Source of the DNA: Anaerolinea sp.
GTDB taxonomy: Bacteria; Chloroflexota; Anaerolineae; Anaerolineales; UBA4823
Length of the DNA: 36,633 nt
Direction: 5' to 3'
NCBI GenBank assembly: GCA_020722415.1
Contig: DYKV01000010.1
Location: forward strand, 1 to 36,633
A program made the position numbers and the translations under genes. Each line of letters starts with the position of its first letter. Positions within the stretch are counted from its first letter, which is position 1. Below the pieces are notes generated by a model, which saw nothing but the letters and a program-made list of their open reading frames with translations, did not search any database and was not told the origin of the DNA. Below are positions 117-9,546 of the stretch, piece by piece.

Positions 117-1259
117 ATGCCAATCGCAGAAATTATTACTATCGGTACAGAGATATTACTTGGTGAGATCAATGACACCAATGCAACCTATCTCTCGCAA
201 CGCTTGAATGCAATTGGAATCGATATCTATCGGAAGACCACCATCGGTGATAACCCCCAACGCATAGCCTCTTTGATCCAAGAAACTTTGTCACGCAGTG
301 ATATCATCCTCACCACTGGGGGGTTGGGCCCAACGGTTGACGATCCAACCCGTGAAGCGATTGCATTGGCATTGGGAGAAGAACAACAGTTTCACCCTGA
401 GTTATGGGAACAAATTAAAGAACGTTTTCGAAGATACCACCGAGAACCAACCGAAAACAATCGCCGCCAAGCATATCTACCCGCTTCCGCTATTCCAATT
501 GAAAATCCAGTAGGAACTGCACCAGCTTTTATCATTCATCAAGCTGGAAAGACCATTGCTTGTCTTCCTGGAGTACCCCGAGAAATGGAATTTCTTATGG
601 AAAATTCTATCATTCCATTTCTAAAATCTACTTATCACTTACAAGGTTTGATTAAAACTCGCACGCTCCACACCGCTGGAATTGGTGAATCTCTCATCGA
701 TTCCATGATAGCGGATTTAGAGACCTTAACCAATCCCACAGTAGGATTAGCTGCTCATTCTGGTCAGGTAGATATCCGCATTACAGTCAAAGCTGATAGT
801 GAATCAGAAGCCAACCAAATGATTGAGCCCGTTGAAAACGAGATCCGAAAACGGCTTAAGGAAACCATATATGGTGCCGACAATGAATCTTTAGAAAAAA
901 TCGCCCTTGATCACCTGCGGTCTTCCAATTGGCATTTGGTGGTTTGTGAAAACAACAGTAAGGGCATTTTAGCTCAAAGGTTGGAAGCTTTCCCTGAGAT
1001 ATTTAAAGCGGGAGAAACAATAACCGGCGATCTTTCTAATGATGATTTAATCATTGCGACAGAACAGTTCCGCTCCTATCACTCAGCAGAATGCGGCTTA
1101 GGTATTTCCATAAAACCTCTCCATCTAGAGCATACGGTGACCATCTATGTCAGCACGCCGTTAAAGCAAGATACATATTCTCGTCCGTATGGCGGTCCAA
1201 CCCAATATGCACCTATTTGGGGGGTAAACCAGGCATTAAACATATTGCGTGAAATATAG
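117..1259 (+). CDS. CinA-like protein (MoCF-binding domain plus degenerate C-terminal domain)
   Basis: This 380-residue protein follows the CinA/competence-damage family layout. Residues 1-170 are a molybdopterin-binding-like (MoaB/Mog) domain, with a GTEILLGEIND start, the TTGGLGPTVDD loop at 66-76 and a LPGVPREM segment at 150-157. A middle linking domain spans about 175-250. In intact family members the C-terminal third is an NMN deamidase (PncC) domain with an ESCTGG-type motif. Here the aligned segment at 278-283 reads ENNSKG, and the stretch that follows looks shortened, so deamidase activity is probably lost. The N-terminal domain, associated with pyrophosphatase activity in the family, appears whole. 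A GGAG-like ribosome site lies about 10 bases before the ATG. The next gene starts 12 bases downstream, suggesting cotranscription. The family call is firm; retained function is inferred. Confidence 0.88.
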   Translation: MPIAEIITIGTEILLGEINDTNATYLSQRLNAIGIDIYRKTTIGDNPQRIASLIQETLSRSDIILTTGGLGPTVDDPTREAIALALGEEQQFHPELWEQIKERFRRYHREPTENNRRQAYLPASAIPIENPVGTAPAFIIHQAGKTIACLPGVPREMEFLMENSIIPFLKSTYHLQGLIKTRTLHTAGIGESLIDSMIADLETLTNPTVGLAAHSGQVDIRITVKADSESEANQMIEPVENEIRKRLKETIYGADNESLEKIALDHLRSSNWHLVVCENNSKGILAQRLEAFPEIFKAGETITGDLSNDDLIIATEQFRSYHSAECGLGISIKPLHLEHTVTIYVSTPLKQDTYSRPYGGPTQYAPIWGVNQALNILREI

Positions 1260-1271
1260 AAAGGATTCTCC

Positions 1272-3251
1272 ATGGCACAATCTGTAGACCTCTTATTAAA
1301 AAATGCTATCGTATTGACAATGGACAACGATCTCCATCAATATGAACCTGGCGCGGTGGCAATTAATGGCAACACCATCATCGCGGTGGGAGAGGAATCA
1401 ACCTTGCAGGCTGAATATACGGCGAAAACCATCCATGATTGTCAAGGGAAAGTATTAATGCCTGGTTTGATTAATGCCCATACCCATGTTCCAATGACCC
1501 TGCTTCGCGGTCTGGCAGATGATTTACGTCTAGATGTATGGCTACTAGGCTATATGATGCCGGTGGAGAGAGAATTTGTGTCTCCGGATTTTGTTGAATT
1601 AGGCACGAAAATAGCCTGTGTGGAACTAATTCGCTCGGGGGTAACCAGTTTTGCGGATATGTATTACTTTGAAGAGCATGTCGCCAATGCCACCGCCCAA
1701 GCTGGTTTGCGGGCAGTTTGTTCCCAGACCGTGATGAAATTCCCCGCTCCAGATGCCCGTTTTTATGAAGAATCATTAGCCCTAACGCGAGAGTTCATTC
1801 AACGCTGGAAAAACCACCCTCTCATTATTCCCTCTGTGGCGCCTCACGCGCCTTATACTTGCACAGATGAGATCTTACAAGCTGCTGCCGCATTAGCGGT
1901 TGAATTCGATGTCCCTCTTCACACCCACCTGGCTGAAACTGCTGGCGAGGTAGAACAATCACGGGCAGAACATGGCATGCCGGTTATACCGTATGTCAAA
2001 AAACAAAATCTTTTCGATGCCAAAGTGCTGGCTGCCCATTGTGTCCATATTGATGATGGTGAAATTAAAACCCTTTTACACCACCAAGCCGGTGTTGCCC
2101 ATAACCCTTCTTCCAATCTCAAATTAGCATCTGGATTTGCTCCCGTCCAAAAAATGCTTGACAGCGGATTGAATGTGGGTATCGGCACGGATGGACCAGC
2201 ATCAAATAATGATTTAGATATGTTCGAAGAAATCCGACTGGCGGCTTTTATCGCCAAGGGTTATAGCGGAGATCCCACCGCATTGCCTGCTACTAAAGCT
2301 TTAAGCATGGCAACCCGCTTAGGAGCCAACGCAATGCATATCGGAAATTTAACCGGGTCACTTGAGGTGGGGAAGCGCGCAGACCTCATCTTGATTGATA
2401 TATCCCCTCTGCATAATACTCCCCGCTTTCGTCGCGATCCACAGGGGATATATGCTCAAATTGTGTATGCATGCAATAAAAATGATGTAACCGATGTTAT
2501 GGTTGATGGAAAATGGCTAATGCAAAACCATCAGTTAACCACCCTTCAGGAAAACGATCTCCGCCAGGCAGCTCAGGAATACGCCAAACAAATCGACACC
2601 TTCCTCATTCAAAGAGAAAAATCGATTCTCTCAAAGCTAATCACCATCGGTGGAGCTGCTGAAGGCGAGAGTTTTGAAGTGCAAGTTAAAGTCCAAATCA
2701 CTGATCCCCAACCTGTATTAGCCGCCATCCAATCAGGCCAATTGGAAATTCTCTATAGCCGCCATTATCACGAATATGATACCTATTTCATCTTCCCCGA
2801 TCCCGATCAAGGATATCTGCGCTATAGAGAAGACGAATTGGTTGACGACAAAGGGAAAATTATCAATGTTCGTTATCGCCTAACCCTGCTTGGAAAAGCC
2901 CGCGAGGCTCGGTTTGATCAAGATGTGTTACTATCTCGCAGCCGTTTCATTGCCCCTGCCACCCATAGCCTACGCTTCTACCGCGAATATTTCAAACCGG
3001 TGCAGGAAGTATCCATCAACAAGGACCGTTTGCGGTGGAGAGTGTTATATCGCGGTACAGAATTTTATATCAACCTTGATCATATTGAAACGCCCGAACT
3101 CGGTTATTTTCTTGAGGTAAAAAGTCGCACCTGGAGTAAACGAGACGCAGAATACAAAGCAGAAGTAGCGGCGAGTTTAATTAAATTCCTCGGCGCCTCC
3201 CCTGATCTCAATGTAACCAATGACTACATTGAAATAGTATTCCCGTCTTGA
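1272..3251 (+). CDS. Amidohydrolase (MtaD/SsnA-like deaminase) fused to a CYTH-like domain
   Basis: This 659-residue protein has two parts. Residues 1-440 form a metal-dependent amidohydrolase of the 5-methylthioadenosine/S-adenosylhomocysteine deaminase or chlorohydrolase type. The metal and catalytic set is visible: H70-x-H72, H192 in PHAP, H217 and H219 in LHTHLAE, H256 in AAHCVH, and D307 in GIGTDGPASNND. Residues about 455-659 resemble a CYTH (triphosphate tunnel) domain: a strand with E469-x-Q471-x-K473 in place of ExExK, basic residues at YLRYRE (515-520), a YRLTLLGK strand, and a closing GYFLEVKSR strand near 611-619. Free-standing MtaD proteins are about 430 residues, so the C-terminal 200 are extra. 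The likely substrate is an adenosine derivative or similar amine, not provable here. An AAGGA site precedes the ATG, which sits 12 bases after the CinA-like gene. Confidence 0.85.
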   Translation: MAQSVDLLLKNAIVLTMDNDLHQYEPGAVAINGNTIIAVGEESTLQAEYTAKTIHDCQGKVLMPGLINAHTHVPMTLLRGLADDLRLDVWLLGYMMPVEREFVSPDFVELGTKIACVELIRSGVTSFADMYYFEEHVANATAQAGLRAVCSQTVMKFPAPDARFYEESLALTREFIQRWKNHPLIIPSVAPHAPYTCTDEILQAAAALAVEFDVPLHTHLAETAGEVEQSRAEHGMPVIPYVKKQNLFDAKVLAAHCVHIDDGEIKTLLHHQAGVAHNPSSNLKLASGFAPVQKMLDSGLNVGIGTDGPASNNDLDMFEEIRLAAFIAKGYSGDPTALPATKALSMATRLGANAMHIGNLTGSLEVGKRADLILIDISPLHNTPRFRRDPQGIYAQIVYACNKNDVTDVMVDGKWLMQNHQLTTLQENDLRQAAQEYAKQIDTFLIQREKSILSKLITIGGAAEGESFEVQVKVQITDPQPVLAAIQSGQLEILYSRHYHEYDTYFIFPDPDQGYLRYREDELVDDKGKIINVRYRLTLLGKAREARFDQDVLLSRSRFIAPATHSLRFYREYFKPVQEVSINKDRLRWRVLYRGTEFYINLDHIETPELGYFLEVKSRTWSKRDAEYKAEVAASLIKFLGASPDLNVTNDYIEIVFPS

Positions 3252-6691: not shown

Positions 6692-6720
6692 GCAAAAATG
6701 CACCTAAATATGATTCTCTG

Positions 6721-6749
6721 TCAACAAATTGGCTTTTTTCGGGTATCAT
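6721..6749 (+). promoter_or_regulatory. Weak candidate promoter for the PQQ-kinase operon
   Basis: TCAACA (6721-6726) and TATCAT (6744-6749) are spaced by 17 bases; the first matches four of six and the second five of six consensus positions. The predicted start site would be only a few bases before the ATG at 6761. It mirrors the divergent purB promoter in the same 107-base gap. The fit is modest and unproven. Confidence 0.3.
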
Positions 6750-6760
6750 ACAACAAAATC

Positions 6761-8656
6761 ATGACAGAAGACTGGAACAGCCCTAATTCAACTGTAAAAG
6801 AACCCGCCTCCACAAATTTAGGCACAGCTCAATTAAGAATTGGTTCAACAATTGCTACCCGTTATTTAATTGAAGGCGTTTTGGGTGTAGGGGGCATGGG
6901 AGCGGTTTATAGAGCGCGCGACCTGCATTTTCCCAATGTCGTCAAGCATGTCGCGGTAAAAGAAATGATAATCCAAACCCATGATCCAGTTATTCGCAGT
7001 TCAATTATTCACAATTTTGAACGCGAAGCAAATTTATTAGCAACCTTAGATCATCCAGCCATTCCGCGCATCTTTGATTATTTTTCCGCCCAAGACCGTT
7101 CGTATTTGGTGATGGAACTTATCAATGGGAAAACACTCGAGGAACTAATAAAAGAAGAATTAGAAATCGCCTCGATCGTCCGTTGGGTAATTGAAATCTG
7201 TGATGTGTTGCAATATTTACATACTCACCAACCAGAACCAATTGTATTCCGAGATATGAAGCCTTCTAATGTGATGATCAATCAATATAATCGGGTTATG
7301 TTGATTGATTTTGGAATCGCCAAACCCTTCCGCGGTGAGCAAAAAGGGACAATGATCGGTACCGAAGGATATTCACCACCAGAACAGTATCGCGGTGAAG
7401 CAACCCACCTAGCTGATATCTACGCGCTTGGGGCAACTTTACATCATGTGCTTACCGGTAAAGATCCACGTTTAGAGCCGCCATTTTCGTTCGGAGAGCG
7501 TCCCATCAGGCGATATAACCCTAATGTATCTACAGAATTAGAAGCGATCGTTATCAAAGCTCTCCAATATGATCCGCAAGATCGGTTTGCCAGTGCACTA
7601 GAAATGAAAAACGCTCTCGAGAATCTACACGCATCCCAAAACCAAACCCAAGATATTGAGACAAGTGCAGCTCCCTTGTTCGCTACTGAAGTTAAATTAT
7701 TGTGGAAATTTCCAACCCAAGATGAGATTCGCGGCAATCTGACGGTTTATGAGCAGTCAGTATTTTTTGGCTCCTATGATCATAACCTATATTGTGTGGA
7801 TAAAAATAGCGGCGAATTAATTTGGCTTTATCAGACAGAAGGCCCAATAGTCAGCCGCCCAGTCGTCGTCGAGGGTAATGTCATCTTTGCTTCTGCTGAC
7901 AACCGGGTTTATGTCCTTAATCAACGCAATGGCAAAATCATATTTTCCTATTATACCCAAGCACCTATATGGTCTTCCCCAGCTTACGCTGCCGGGCATA
8001 TTTTCATCGGATCGGATGACTGTTATCTTCATGCAATCAATTTAGCATCCGGCAATTCCAGCTGGAAAATTGATGCTGGCTCTCCTATTCGGTCCACCCC
8101 CTTCATTTTTGATGACGGAATATATTTCGGGAGTGAATATGGCGATTATTATTGCCTGGATTTTCGTGGCTCAATTCGTTGGCGGTTTAAGGCAAAAAAA
8201 GCTTTGACCGGTTCTACTATTGCCGAAAAGAATTCGGTCTTTTTTGGATCATTGGATGCGAACGTCTACGCCCTAGATGCGAAGACTGGCTGGTTGTTAT
8301 GGCGCACCCGTTTAGGAAAAGCAACCATTTCAACCCCCTCTCTCTCAGGTGACTATCTCTACATTGGTTCCACGGATGGAAATCTTTATTGCCTAGATAC
8401 AAGGAATGGGAAAATCCTCTGGCAGTTTGAAACGCTCAATCAGGTAAATGGATCACCGCTGATCTTCCATGATCGAGTTTATTTTGGCTCTGTTGATAGT
8501 TTTATCTATTGCATAGATGGACTTTCCGGAAATCTAATCTGGAAATACCAAACTGGTGGAGCAATCATCAGCAATCCCCTCATCATTGGAAATGTCCTTT
8601 ATATCGGATCTACCGATAATAACCTTTATGCATTACAAATCAATTTATCTGGATAG
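6761..8656 (+). CDS. Ser/Thr protein kinase with C-terminal PQQ-like beta-propeller
   Basis: A 631-residue Hanks-type kinase from the chosen ATG. Residues 35-290 are the kinase domain: glycine loop GVLGVGGMGAVYRARD, K67 in HVAVKEM, catalytic loop FRDMKPSN (F163-R164-D165, with Phe replacing the usual His), DFG at 183-185 and GTEGYSPPEQY in the activation segment. Residues 312-631 hold about eight repeats of the form YxGSxDxxLYCLDxxxGxxxW, diagnostic of a PQQ/quinoprotein-like propeller. No transmembrane segment lies between the domains, so both should be cytoplasmic and the propeller probably acts as a ligand- or protein-binding sensor. A longer frame begins at 6698, but kinase similarity does not need it. 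The PP2C gene follows by 11 bases, pointing to a kinase/phosphatase pair. No Shine-Dalgarno precedes the ATG. Confidence 0.9.
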   Translation: MTEDWNSPNSTVKEPASTNLGTAQLRIGSTIATRYLIEGVLGVGGMGAVYRARDLHFPNVVKHVAVKEMIIQTHDPVIRSSIIHNFEREANLLATLDHPAIPRIFDYFSAQDRSYLVMELINGKTLEELIKEELEIASIVRWVIEICDVLQYLHTHQPEPIVFRDMKPSNVMINQYNRVMLIDFGIAKPFRGEQKGTMIGTEGYSPPEQYRGEATHLADIYALGATLHHVLTGKDPRLEPPFSFGERPIRRYNPNVSTELEAIVIKALQYDPQDRFASALEMKNALENLHASQNQTQDIETSAAPLFATEVKLLWKFPTQDEIRGNLTVYEQSVFFGSYDHNLYCVDKNSGELIWLYQTEGPIVSRPVVVEGNVIFASADNRVYVLNQRNGKIIFSYYTQAPIWSSPAYAAGHIFIGSDDCYLHAINLASGNSSWKIDAGSPIRSTPFIFDDGIYFGSEYGDYYCLDFRGSIRWRFKAKKALTGSTIAEKNSVFFGSLDANVYALDAKTGWLLWRTRLGKATISTPSLSGDYLYIGSTDGNLYCLDTRNGKILWQFETLNQVNGSPLIFHDRVYFGSVDSFIYCIDGLSGNLIWKYQTGGAIISNPLIIGNVLYIGSTDNNLYALQINLSG

Positions 8657-8667
8657 GAAATTTCAAA

Positions 8668-9546
8668 GTGAAATCATTCTTTAAACGGACCACTCCGAAA
8701 ACGAAACCGAAACAAGGCGAACACCCCTCTTTTTCAAATCCCATTCAAACTGGAGCACAAGCAAATTGGAATCTACCTCAATTTTCTTACGCCTTTGCCC
8801 AATCCGTTGGAATGCAGCGCGATCATAATGAGGATACCCTTATCGCCTTAGCCAGCTCATTGTCCTTACAAGAGAGTGTACGTCCTTTCGGCTTTTTTGC
8901 GATTGCCGATGGTATGGGCGGGCATCTCCATGGGGAGATAGCCAGTAAACTGGCAATAGGTTCCATAACCGCGACAATTACCGAACGAATATTAATCCCT
9001 TATGTCAACCCTACCCGTCCAACTCCACAGAACCCACTTCAGAGTATTATCAATGAGGCAATACTCACCGCTCATCAGGAAGTCCTCCGACATGCTACCG
9101 GTGGTGGCACCACATTAACAGCCTGTTTGATTTTTGGCAGTTATTTAACCATTGCTCATGTAGGGGACAGCCGCGCATATTATATAAGCCTAAACGGCGA
9201 GATCAAACGCTATACCCGGGATCATTCGCTGGTTAATCGCCTGATCGAATTAGGTCAAATAAACGAAAAACAATCCCTCACGCATCCACAGCGTAATGTT
9301 CTCTATCGTGCCCTTGGCCAAAATGAACCACTCGAAGCAGACATCGACTCCTTCCCAATCCCGGAAAATGGCTATTTATTAATTTGTTCCGATGGCTTAT
9401 GGAGTGTTGTACCCGATCAGAGGATATCCGAAATAGTCGGTTCAAGCATTTCCCTTCAAGCGGCATGTAATGAGCTTATTCAATCAGCAAATCAAGCTGG
9501 TGGACCTGATAATATTTCTGTAATACTGGTAAAATTTAACGGATAG
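8668..9546 (+). CDS. PP2C-family Ser/Thr protein phosphatase
   Basis: A 292-residue PP2C/PPM phosphatase, which removes phosphate from Ser/Thr using two metal ions. The metal-site acidic residues are present: D56 in RDHNEDT, D81-G82 in IADGMGGH, D242 in ICSDGLW and D281 in GPDNIS. VGDSRAYY at 165-172 is the usual central strand. The first 38 residues are basic and proline-rich with no membrane segment, so the enzyme is probably soluble or loosely associated. The start is GTG with AGGAAA about eight bases before it. It lies 11 bases after the PQQ kinase, the classic arrangement of a Stk/Stp-type pair, and the likely role is to reverse that kinase's phosphorylations. Confidence 0.93.
   Translation: MKSFFKRTTPKTKPKQGEHPSFSNPIQTGAQANWNLPQFSYAFAQSVGMQRDHNEDTLIALASSLSLQESVRPFGFFAIADGMGGHLHGEIASKLAIGSITATITERILIPYVNPTRPTPQNPLQSIINEAILTAHQEVLRHATGGGTTLTACLIFGSYLTIAHVGDSRAYYISLNGEIKRYTRDHSLVNRLIELGQINEKQSLTHPQRNVLYRALGQNEPLEADIDSFPIPENGYLLICSDGLWSVVPDQRISEIVGSSISLQAACNELIQSANQAGGPDNISVILVKFNG

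Follow-up and report, generated by a model that had tools for sequence, protein, structure and literature searches.

What is a triphosphate tunnel doing at the end of a deaminase, and can it still cut what it binds? The question is raised by one gene in a 36,633-nucleotide (nt) stretch of DNA from Anaerolinea sp. (Chloroflexota; assembly GCA_020722415.1, contig DYKV01000010.1, forward strand), which we call the window. An open reading frame (ORF) with an ATG start at 1272..3251, on the plus strand like the protein parts located below, encodes a 659-amino-acid (aa) protein that, by Pfam, AlphaFold2, and structure matches, is a fusion of a deaminase-like amidohydrolase and a CYTH-like domain. 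An earlier reading made from the letters alone (the sequence-only reading) had proposed this two-domain order, and it is borne out: the protein is an intact amidohydrolase of the 5'-methylthioadenosine (MTA)/S-adenosylhomocysteine (SAH) deaminase type, followed by a CYTH, or triphosphate-tunnel, domain. The amidohydrolase domain (residues 1-443; 1272..2600) is supported by its Amidohydro_1 match, by relatives in the PDB (4f0r, 3lnp, 4dzh, and 4gbd), and by conservation. Two helices in the AlphaFold2 secondary structure (residues 427-448 and 452-459; 2550..2648) bridge the domains, and F444 and K455 in this region are invariant in a set of 106 non-redundant sequences. The eight-stranded tunnel domain, hereafter the tail, occupies residues about 462-655 (2655..3236), as judged from profile, AlphaFold2, and structure matches. 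The full-length model had a pLDDT of 91.6 and a pTM of 0.89; its alignment held the window and 52 of 76 full-length loci, and that of a separate tail model held the window and 76 of 80 tails.

The tail resembles CYTH domains in predicted structure. Its model (pLDDT, 87.4; pTM, 0.82) shows eight strands together with a helix at the C terminus, the expected tunnel rather than another fold, and the ten best Foldseek matches were all CYTH-fold entries (E values, 2.1e-8 to 1.4e-7). The structural Z score was 18.2 to 2een_A, 16.0 to 17.0 to entries of CyaB and of SaTTM with bound ligand, 13.1 to open SaTTM (7ns8), 14.5 to mouse ThTPase, 13.9 to ygiF, 14.8 to plant TTM1 (7z67), 8.8 to Vtc4p, and 8.9 to 13.5 to Mediator chains.

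Sequence searches with the window tail by itself (residues about 462-655) returned no match in Pfam, NCBIfam, or PDB sequences, and a profile of 77 tails matched no PDB sequence. Among the relatives' tails, CYTH (PF01928) was the commonest Pfam family (25/77 at an E value of ≤1; best, 3.5e-6). Both Amidohydro_1 and CYTH exceeded the Pfam gathering score within one chain in three of the six full-length relatives scanned; the remaining three had no CYTH match at an E value of ≤0.01. When 121 genomes of the phylum were searched with the CYTH model, 11 matches fell at fused-gene loci, including 8 that exceeded the gathering score, and the fusion is present in at least 27 of those genomes, so a single-model search overlooks most fused genes. 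An hhalign comparison of 106 tails with 22 separate CYTH domains of the phylum gave a probability of 95.6 (E value, 1.1e-8; 155 columns); the 22 domains came from 31 loci filtered for ExExK, RxR, and ExE, of which 24 passed and 2 were dropped before alignment. The profile check suggested in the sequence-only reading thus failed on the single window sequence and succeeded on its relatives, and because the relatives' profile matches and the tunnel fold agree, the CYTH assignment stands. Membership in the VTC family (PF09359) was rejected, because hhalign with 13 VTC domains gave a probability of 1.2 over 10 columns. Class IV adenylyl cyclase (CyaB) membership was also rejected: excerpts of PMC8233210 give the motif of that class as HFxxxxExExK, and residues 463-473 (AEGESFEVQVK) are without HF and have Gln for Glu. 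By its fold and by profile comparison, the tail is homologous to CYTH domains and lies outside the catalytic group defined by ExExK.

The tail departs from that group chiefly at metal-site positions. In the hhalign mapping, E469/Q471/K473 fell on ExExK (2676..2690), R517/R519 on the RxR of CYTH LRLR (2820..2828), L540 on the lysine of LTxKG (2889..2891), K584/R586 on KxR, in a basic strand that continues to R588 (3021..3035), D603 on the Asp in the strand that follows, and E615/K617 on ExE (3114..3122). The window reads E469-V-Q471-V-K473 and E615-V-K617, as the sequence-only reading had it, and these substitutions are fixed: E469, Q471, K473, R517, R519, K584, R586, R588, N601, D603, E615, K617, and R619 were invariant in 106/106 non-redundant tails, and position 540 was I, L, V, T, or M in all 106. 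The tail therefore shares with CYTH/TTM proteins (PF01928: PH1819 2een, SaTTM 7ns9, CyaB 2fjt/3n0z, and ygiF 5a60) the eight-stranded tunnel, the first Glu and the Lys of ExExK, the RxR and KxR phosphate-binding pairs, the Asp before the last strand, and the first Glu of ExE. It differs from them in the Gln of ExExK, the Lys of ExE, the uncharged residue at the LTxKG lysine, and its position behind a deaminase. In separate CYTH domains of the phylum, both changed positions were Glu in 31/31, in a control that favours canonical members through its high-scoring loci and its motif-selected aligning profile (L001, the match from the window's own genome, plus the best-scoring 30 loci, L159-L188). 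Three loci of this set (L172, L183, and L185) hold small CYTH domains with N for the first Glu of ExExK and L for the second Arg of RxR.

According to excerpts of PMC4641920, E4, E6, and E162 of ygiF form metal site 2, the catalytic site that activates water, and E160, the first Glu of ExE, serves the site-1 metal on the substrate; a supporting lysine helps to orient a site-2 Glu. The same source reports that hydrolysis was strongly reduced or impaired when E2, E4, or E169 of AtTTM3 or E6 or E160 of ygiF was changed, and that in Vtc4p basic residues occupy the acidic patch of the hydrolases. By alignment, site 2 of the tail is missing two of the three glutamates (Q471 and K617) and the helper lysine (L540), and site 1 retains its main Glu, E615.

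Conservation in the tail is concentrated on the inside of the tunnel. Homology to SaTTM fixes which face of strands 1, 3, 6, and 8 points inward; in these strands, 12 of the 22 positions lining the lumen were invariant versus 2 of the 23 facing outward (Fisher P = 0.0012), and therefore the tunnel interior is under selection. Across all eight strands, mean conservation was 0.76 inward versus 0.69 outward (P = 0.036), a comparison in which two strands were anchored on the invariant residues themselves.

Our favoured explanation, to which we would give about an even chance, is that the tail is a phosphate-binding, non-hydrolysing, regulatory module on a purine-salvage deaminase. Because the tunnel keeps its binding residues and loses most of the water-activating ones, it probably holds a phosphate compound uncut. 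Under this proposal the zinc-type amidohydrolase would deaminate a 5'-modified adenosine (MTA, 5'-deoxyadenosine, or a relative), and the Arg and Lys residues of the tunnel would bind a phosphate compound, which could be a nucleoside triphosphate, a short polyphosphate, or inorganic tri- or pyrophosphate, with E615 perhaps holding one metal. The dismantling of site 2 (Glu to Gln, Glu to Lys, and the supporting Lys to an uncharged residue) would have removed the usual hydrolysis route, and the bound ligand would most likely signal energy or phosphate state, either to the deaminase of the same chain by allostery or to a partner. The fixed site-2 changes fit what the sequence-only reading had proposed, binding or a changed substrate rather than classic hydrolysis.

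Several points weigh against this explanation. The fusion is the sole tie between the tail's function and the deaminase, and the AlphaFold2 models contain neither ligand nor metal. The canonical bias of the control set also counts here, as does the finding that its 31 domains had the first Glu in 28 and the LTxKG lysine in 28 but the KxR lysine in only 15. Changing the supporting lysine of AtTTM3 to Leu or Ala lowered activity only moderately (PMC4641920, in part), and since E469, a site-2 ligand, is retained, a weak second metal is possible. Excerpts of PMC8233210 describe SaTTM E7, the second Glu of ExExK and the counterpart of Q471, as contacting metal 1 too, so site 1 may be weakened as well. 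The same excerpts describe class IV adenylyl cyclases as being without the second Glu of ExE, yet these are enzymes, and plant TTM1 and TTM2 are reported to act on pyrophosphate without the signature motifs (PMC8233210 and PMC8615392, in part).

These last cases lead to the strongest competing explanation, which we consider rather unlikely: the tail would be an active enzyme of changed chemistry, cleaving pyrophosphate or some special nucleotide or else moving phosphate in the manner of Vtc4p, with one metal and with K617 standing in for metal 2, and the whole chain would be a two-step salvage enzyme. The invariant lumen residues would suit a catalyst, the motif-poor plant TTM1/2 provide a precedent and TTM1 matches the tail model structurally (7z67; Z score, 14.8), and Vtc4p makes polyphosphate with basic residues replacing the acidic patch (PMC4641920, in part). 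Set against this, site 2 activates water in the hydrolases studied, the tested Glu changes at sites 1 and 2 of AtTTM3 and ygiF strongly reduce or impair hydrolysis, and the tail is far from VTC by profile. The two precedents also differ from the tail. Plant TTM1/TTM2, the nearest architectural parallel, join a CYTH domain to a nucleoside-salvage-type enzyme; that enzyme, however, is a uridine-kinase-type domain, the reported preference is for pyrophosphate, and the motif changes are alike by description only (PMC8233210 and PMC8615392, in part). Vtc4p (PF09359, 3g3r) shares the tunnel fold and is described with a metal at site 1 (PMC4641920, in part), whereas the fused protein has no profile kinship to the 13 VTC domains and keeps the acidic-patch Glu, E469.

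Alternatively, the tail could be a structural or oligomerisation domain without a small ligand. Med18 is a tunnel-fold Mediator subunit with a non-catalytic role, and Mediator chains match the tail model (Z scores, 8.9 to 13.5); CYTH proteins, moreover, are described as typically forming dimers (PMC8233210, in part). We regard this scaffold role as improbable, since it leaves the invariant lumen-side Arg, Lys, and Glu residues (12/22 versus 2/23) unexplained. A classic CYTH triphosphatase that tolerates both substitutions, as CYTH homology and the retained Arg and Lys residues might allow, is very improbable, because both changes lie at site-2 ligands and are fixed in 106/106 tails, with Glu at both places in 31/31 separate domains.

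The regulatory module that we favour may act on the deaminase domain, whose identity is firm at the level of the family. Residues 61-416 of the window protein matched Amidohydro_1 in Pfam (E value, 3.5e-75). The six residues H70, H72, H219, E222, H256, and D307, whose metal or catalytic roles we take from the amidohydrolase superfamily, were invariant in 106/106 non-redundant full-length relatives, which agrees with the full metal site seen in the sequence-only reading. The nearest solved structures were the MTA/SAH deaminase 4f0r together with 3lnp, 4dzh, 4dyk, and 4gbd, and the full-length model superposed on 4dzh, 4f0s, 4f0r, and 4gbd with TM-scores (by target) of 0.95 to 0.96 at 37 to 40% identity. 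Compared with MTA/SAH deaminases, identity was 38 to 40% to those of C. violaceum (4f0r) and P. aeruginosa (4gbd and 4dyk) and 33% to T. maritima TM0936 (1p1m), with TM-scores by target of 0.92 to 0.96 for these four; unlike the fused protein, their PDB chains have 406 to 458 residues, which leaves no room for a tunnel.

The substrate is less certain. Of 68 NCBIfam models matched, none of the 25 shown exceeded its own cut-off (best, NF006549 with 466 bits against 540; NF012037 scored 301.5 against 779), so we assign a deaminase without an exact substrate. The sequences place the protein among MTA/SAH deaminases (COG0402 amidohydrolases) at the family level only, and MTA, 5'-deoxyadenosine, SAH, or adenosine may be its substrate. 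The label MtaD-like in the sequence-only reading is therefore kept for the family, by the Amidohydro_1 match and the 4f0r-type structures, and not for a particular substrate, given the NCBIfam scores and the SAH results that follow.

Had SAH deamination fed a hydrolase of S-inosylhomocysteine (SIH), carriers of the fusion would be predicted to have the HxExK fingerprint described for SIH-preferring SAH hydrolases (PMC10978960, in part). We read this fingerprint in 43 loci of 42 carrier genomes, which are all carriers in a 201-genome sample except the window's own genome, and in 57 of 158 non-carriers. Carriers had HxTxE in 42/43, HxTxK in 1/43, and HxExK in 0/43; non-carriers had HxTxE in 56/57 and HxTxQ in 1/57. 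Since the carrier fingerprints are the same as those of non-carriers, the SIH route is unsupported, which counts against our favoured explanation, and the fingerprints argue that SAH deamination is not the main route. The lone HxTxK locus among carriers (L275) is a second SAH hydrolase of genome G196. SAH hydrolase genes were found in 38/41 relatives and in 199/201 genomes of the phylum; a search of the window's own draft genome gave no match. That genome does encode an inosine/guanosine (purine nucleoside) phosphorylase, an MTA-phosphorylase-type gene that exceeds both the MTA- and the 5'-methylthioinosine (MTI)-phosphorylase cut-offs, an 8-oxoguanine deaminase, and an SsnA-type paralogue. 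These phosphorylases do not settle the substrate of the deaminase.

The search for the same two-domain order called for in the sequence-only reading showed that the fusion is widespread in this lineage. Coverage outside the phylum came from a single scan of genome contigs with peptide patterns of the tail, which captures close relatives only; the best 80 of 86 relatives were used. The tail is encoded in 57 of 61 near genomes (own genome included), and in 33/33 of those at least 90% complete with at most 5% contamination. Across the phylum it was found in 63 of 301 genomes: the window's own, 23/24 others of the same order, 10/14 in other orders of the class, and 29/262 in other classes, where 262 assumes that all 218 unlisted match-free genomes belong to other classes, as the list order suggests. 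Anaerolinea thermolimosa IMO-1 and Pelolinea submarina MO-CFX1 are among the named carriers. One further record, L063, is labelled Calditrichia and has a tail 62% identical to that of the window; either a Chloroflexota contig binned in error or a transfer probably accounts for it.

The two domains have travelled together. Among 140 tail-holding loci, in which near-copies of the same genomes are counted, 134 were full length and 6 were cut at the end of the locus. When 201 genomes were searched with the deaminase part only (E value of ≤1e-80), 47 matches in 46 genomes were obtained. All 42 matches with at least 49% identity lay in frames of at least 658 aa that also contain the tail, and four matches with 37 to 40% identity lay in frames of 440 to 453 aa, which leave no room for a tail. 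In G196, the deaminase piece lies in a 415-aa frame (query residues 4-356), and the tail is on a different contig, the end of which truncates its frame. No standalone tail was shown among the candidates: the short tail frames of G004, G008, and G026 are each no more than about 0.66 kb from the end of a contig, and that of G196 is also near one. Further tail fragments comprise 57 residues (G022) and 30 residues (G008). For the 5,565 pairs that can be formed from the 106 sequences, deaminase identity and tail identity are correlated (r = 0.86). This correlation and the fused state of all 42 closer matches count in favour of our explanation. This distribution suggests that the fusion is old, and a single fusion followed by vertical descent would be the simplest history.

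We also considered whether other long CYTH frames of the phylum are independent fusions to an amidohydrolase; eight of the nine scanned were CYTH-CHAD. Such ygiF-type proteins likewise carry CYTH within a multi-domain chain, but there CYTH is N-terminal to CHAD and no amidohydrolase is present. The ninth frame (L304:432-2414, plus strand) encodes 661 residues with a CYTH match at 498-587; Pfam gave nothing else in this frame at an E value of ≤0.001.

In the open-licence literature we found no publication naming a CYTH domain paired with an amidohydrolase or deaminase, and the multi-domain clusters named in excerpts of a CYTH survey are those with CHAD and phosphoribulokinase domains (PMC8233210). 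The architecture is nevertheless already visible to automatic annotation, because domain libraries detect both domains in some members. The papers cited here describe CYTH domains as having triphosphatase, pyrophosphatase, or cyclase activity. A catalytic metal site that is altered in a fixed way throughout a lineage, with the phosphate-binding residues kept, offers a natural test of a tunnel that probably cannot cut. If our favoured explanation is true, it predicts that the recycling of adenosine-type waste in Chloroflexota is under ligand control. Direct testing is feasible because the named strains carry the fusion.

In the window, the fused gene begins 12 nt after the end of a cinA-like gene (117..1259), its probable operon partner, and an inositol-phosphatase-family gene follows 126 nt after its own end. 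Outside the window, the functions of neighbours were assigned by reading their sequences. The fused gene is preceded by a same-strand cinA-like gene in 59 of 80 loci (median gap, 15 nt; 45/59 within -10 to 60 nt), and at least 900 nt of upstream sequence was present in 71 of the 80. Downstream on the same strand, a glycogen synthase gene (glgA) occurs in 35/80 loci (median gap, 16 nt; 28/36 ORFs within -10 to 60 nt), and an inositol-phosphatase-family gene occurs downstream in 23/80, only 7 of them within 60 nt. Among these 80 loci (L032-L111), a 4-alpha-glucanotransferase-like gene is found downstream in 33 loci and a metallophosphatase-like gene within 18 nt downstream in 8 others. The cinA, glgA, and inositol-phosphatase-family neighbours suggest co-transcription and indicate no ligand. 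We tentatively raise a more specific and more doubtful form of our favoured explanation, in which the CYTH domain, with a lysine in its dismantled site 2, would hold a triphosphate or polyphosphate uncut and set deaminase activity, as an allosteric module sensing energy or phosphate. Its action might be coordinated with glycogen synthesis, for which the synthase gene follows in 35/80 loci.

In CinA proteins the C-terminal part is usually an amidase domain. The CinA-like protein of the window contains MoCF_biosynth (residues 5-170) and CinA_KH (residues 181-253), and its last approximately 125 residues are without a Pfam match. Elsewhere in the window, a gene at 6698-9546 (plus strand) encodes a protein kinase fused to a PQQ-type beta-propeller and is followed by a PP2C phosphatase gene; the two are likely a signalling pair.

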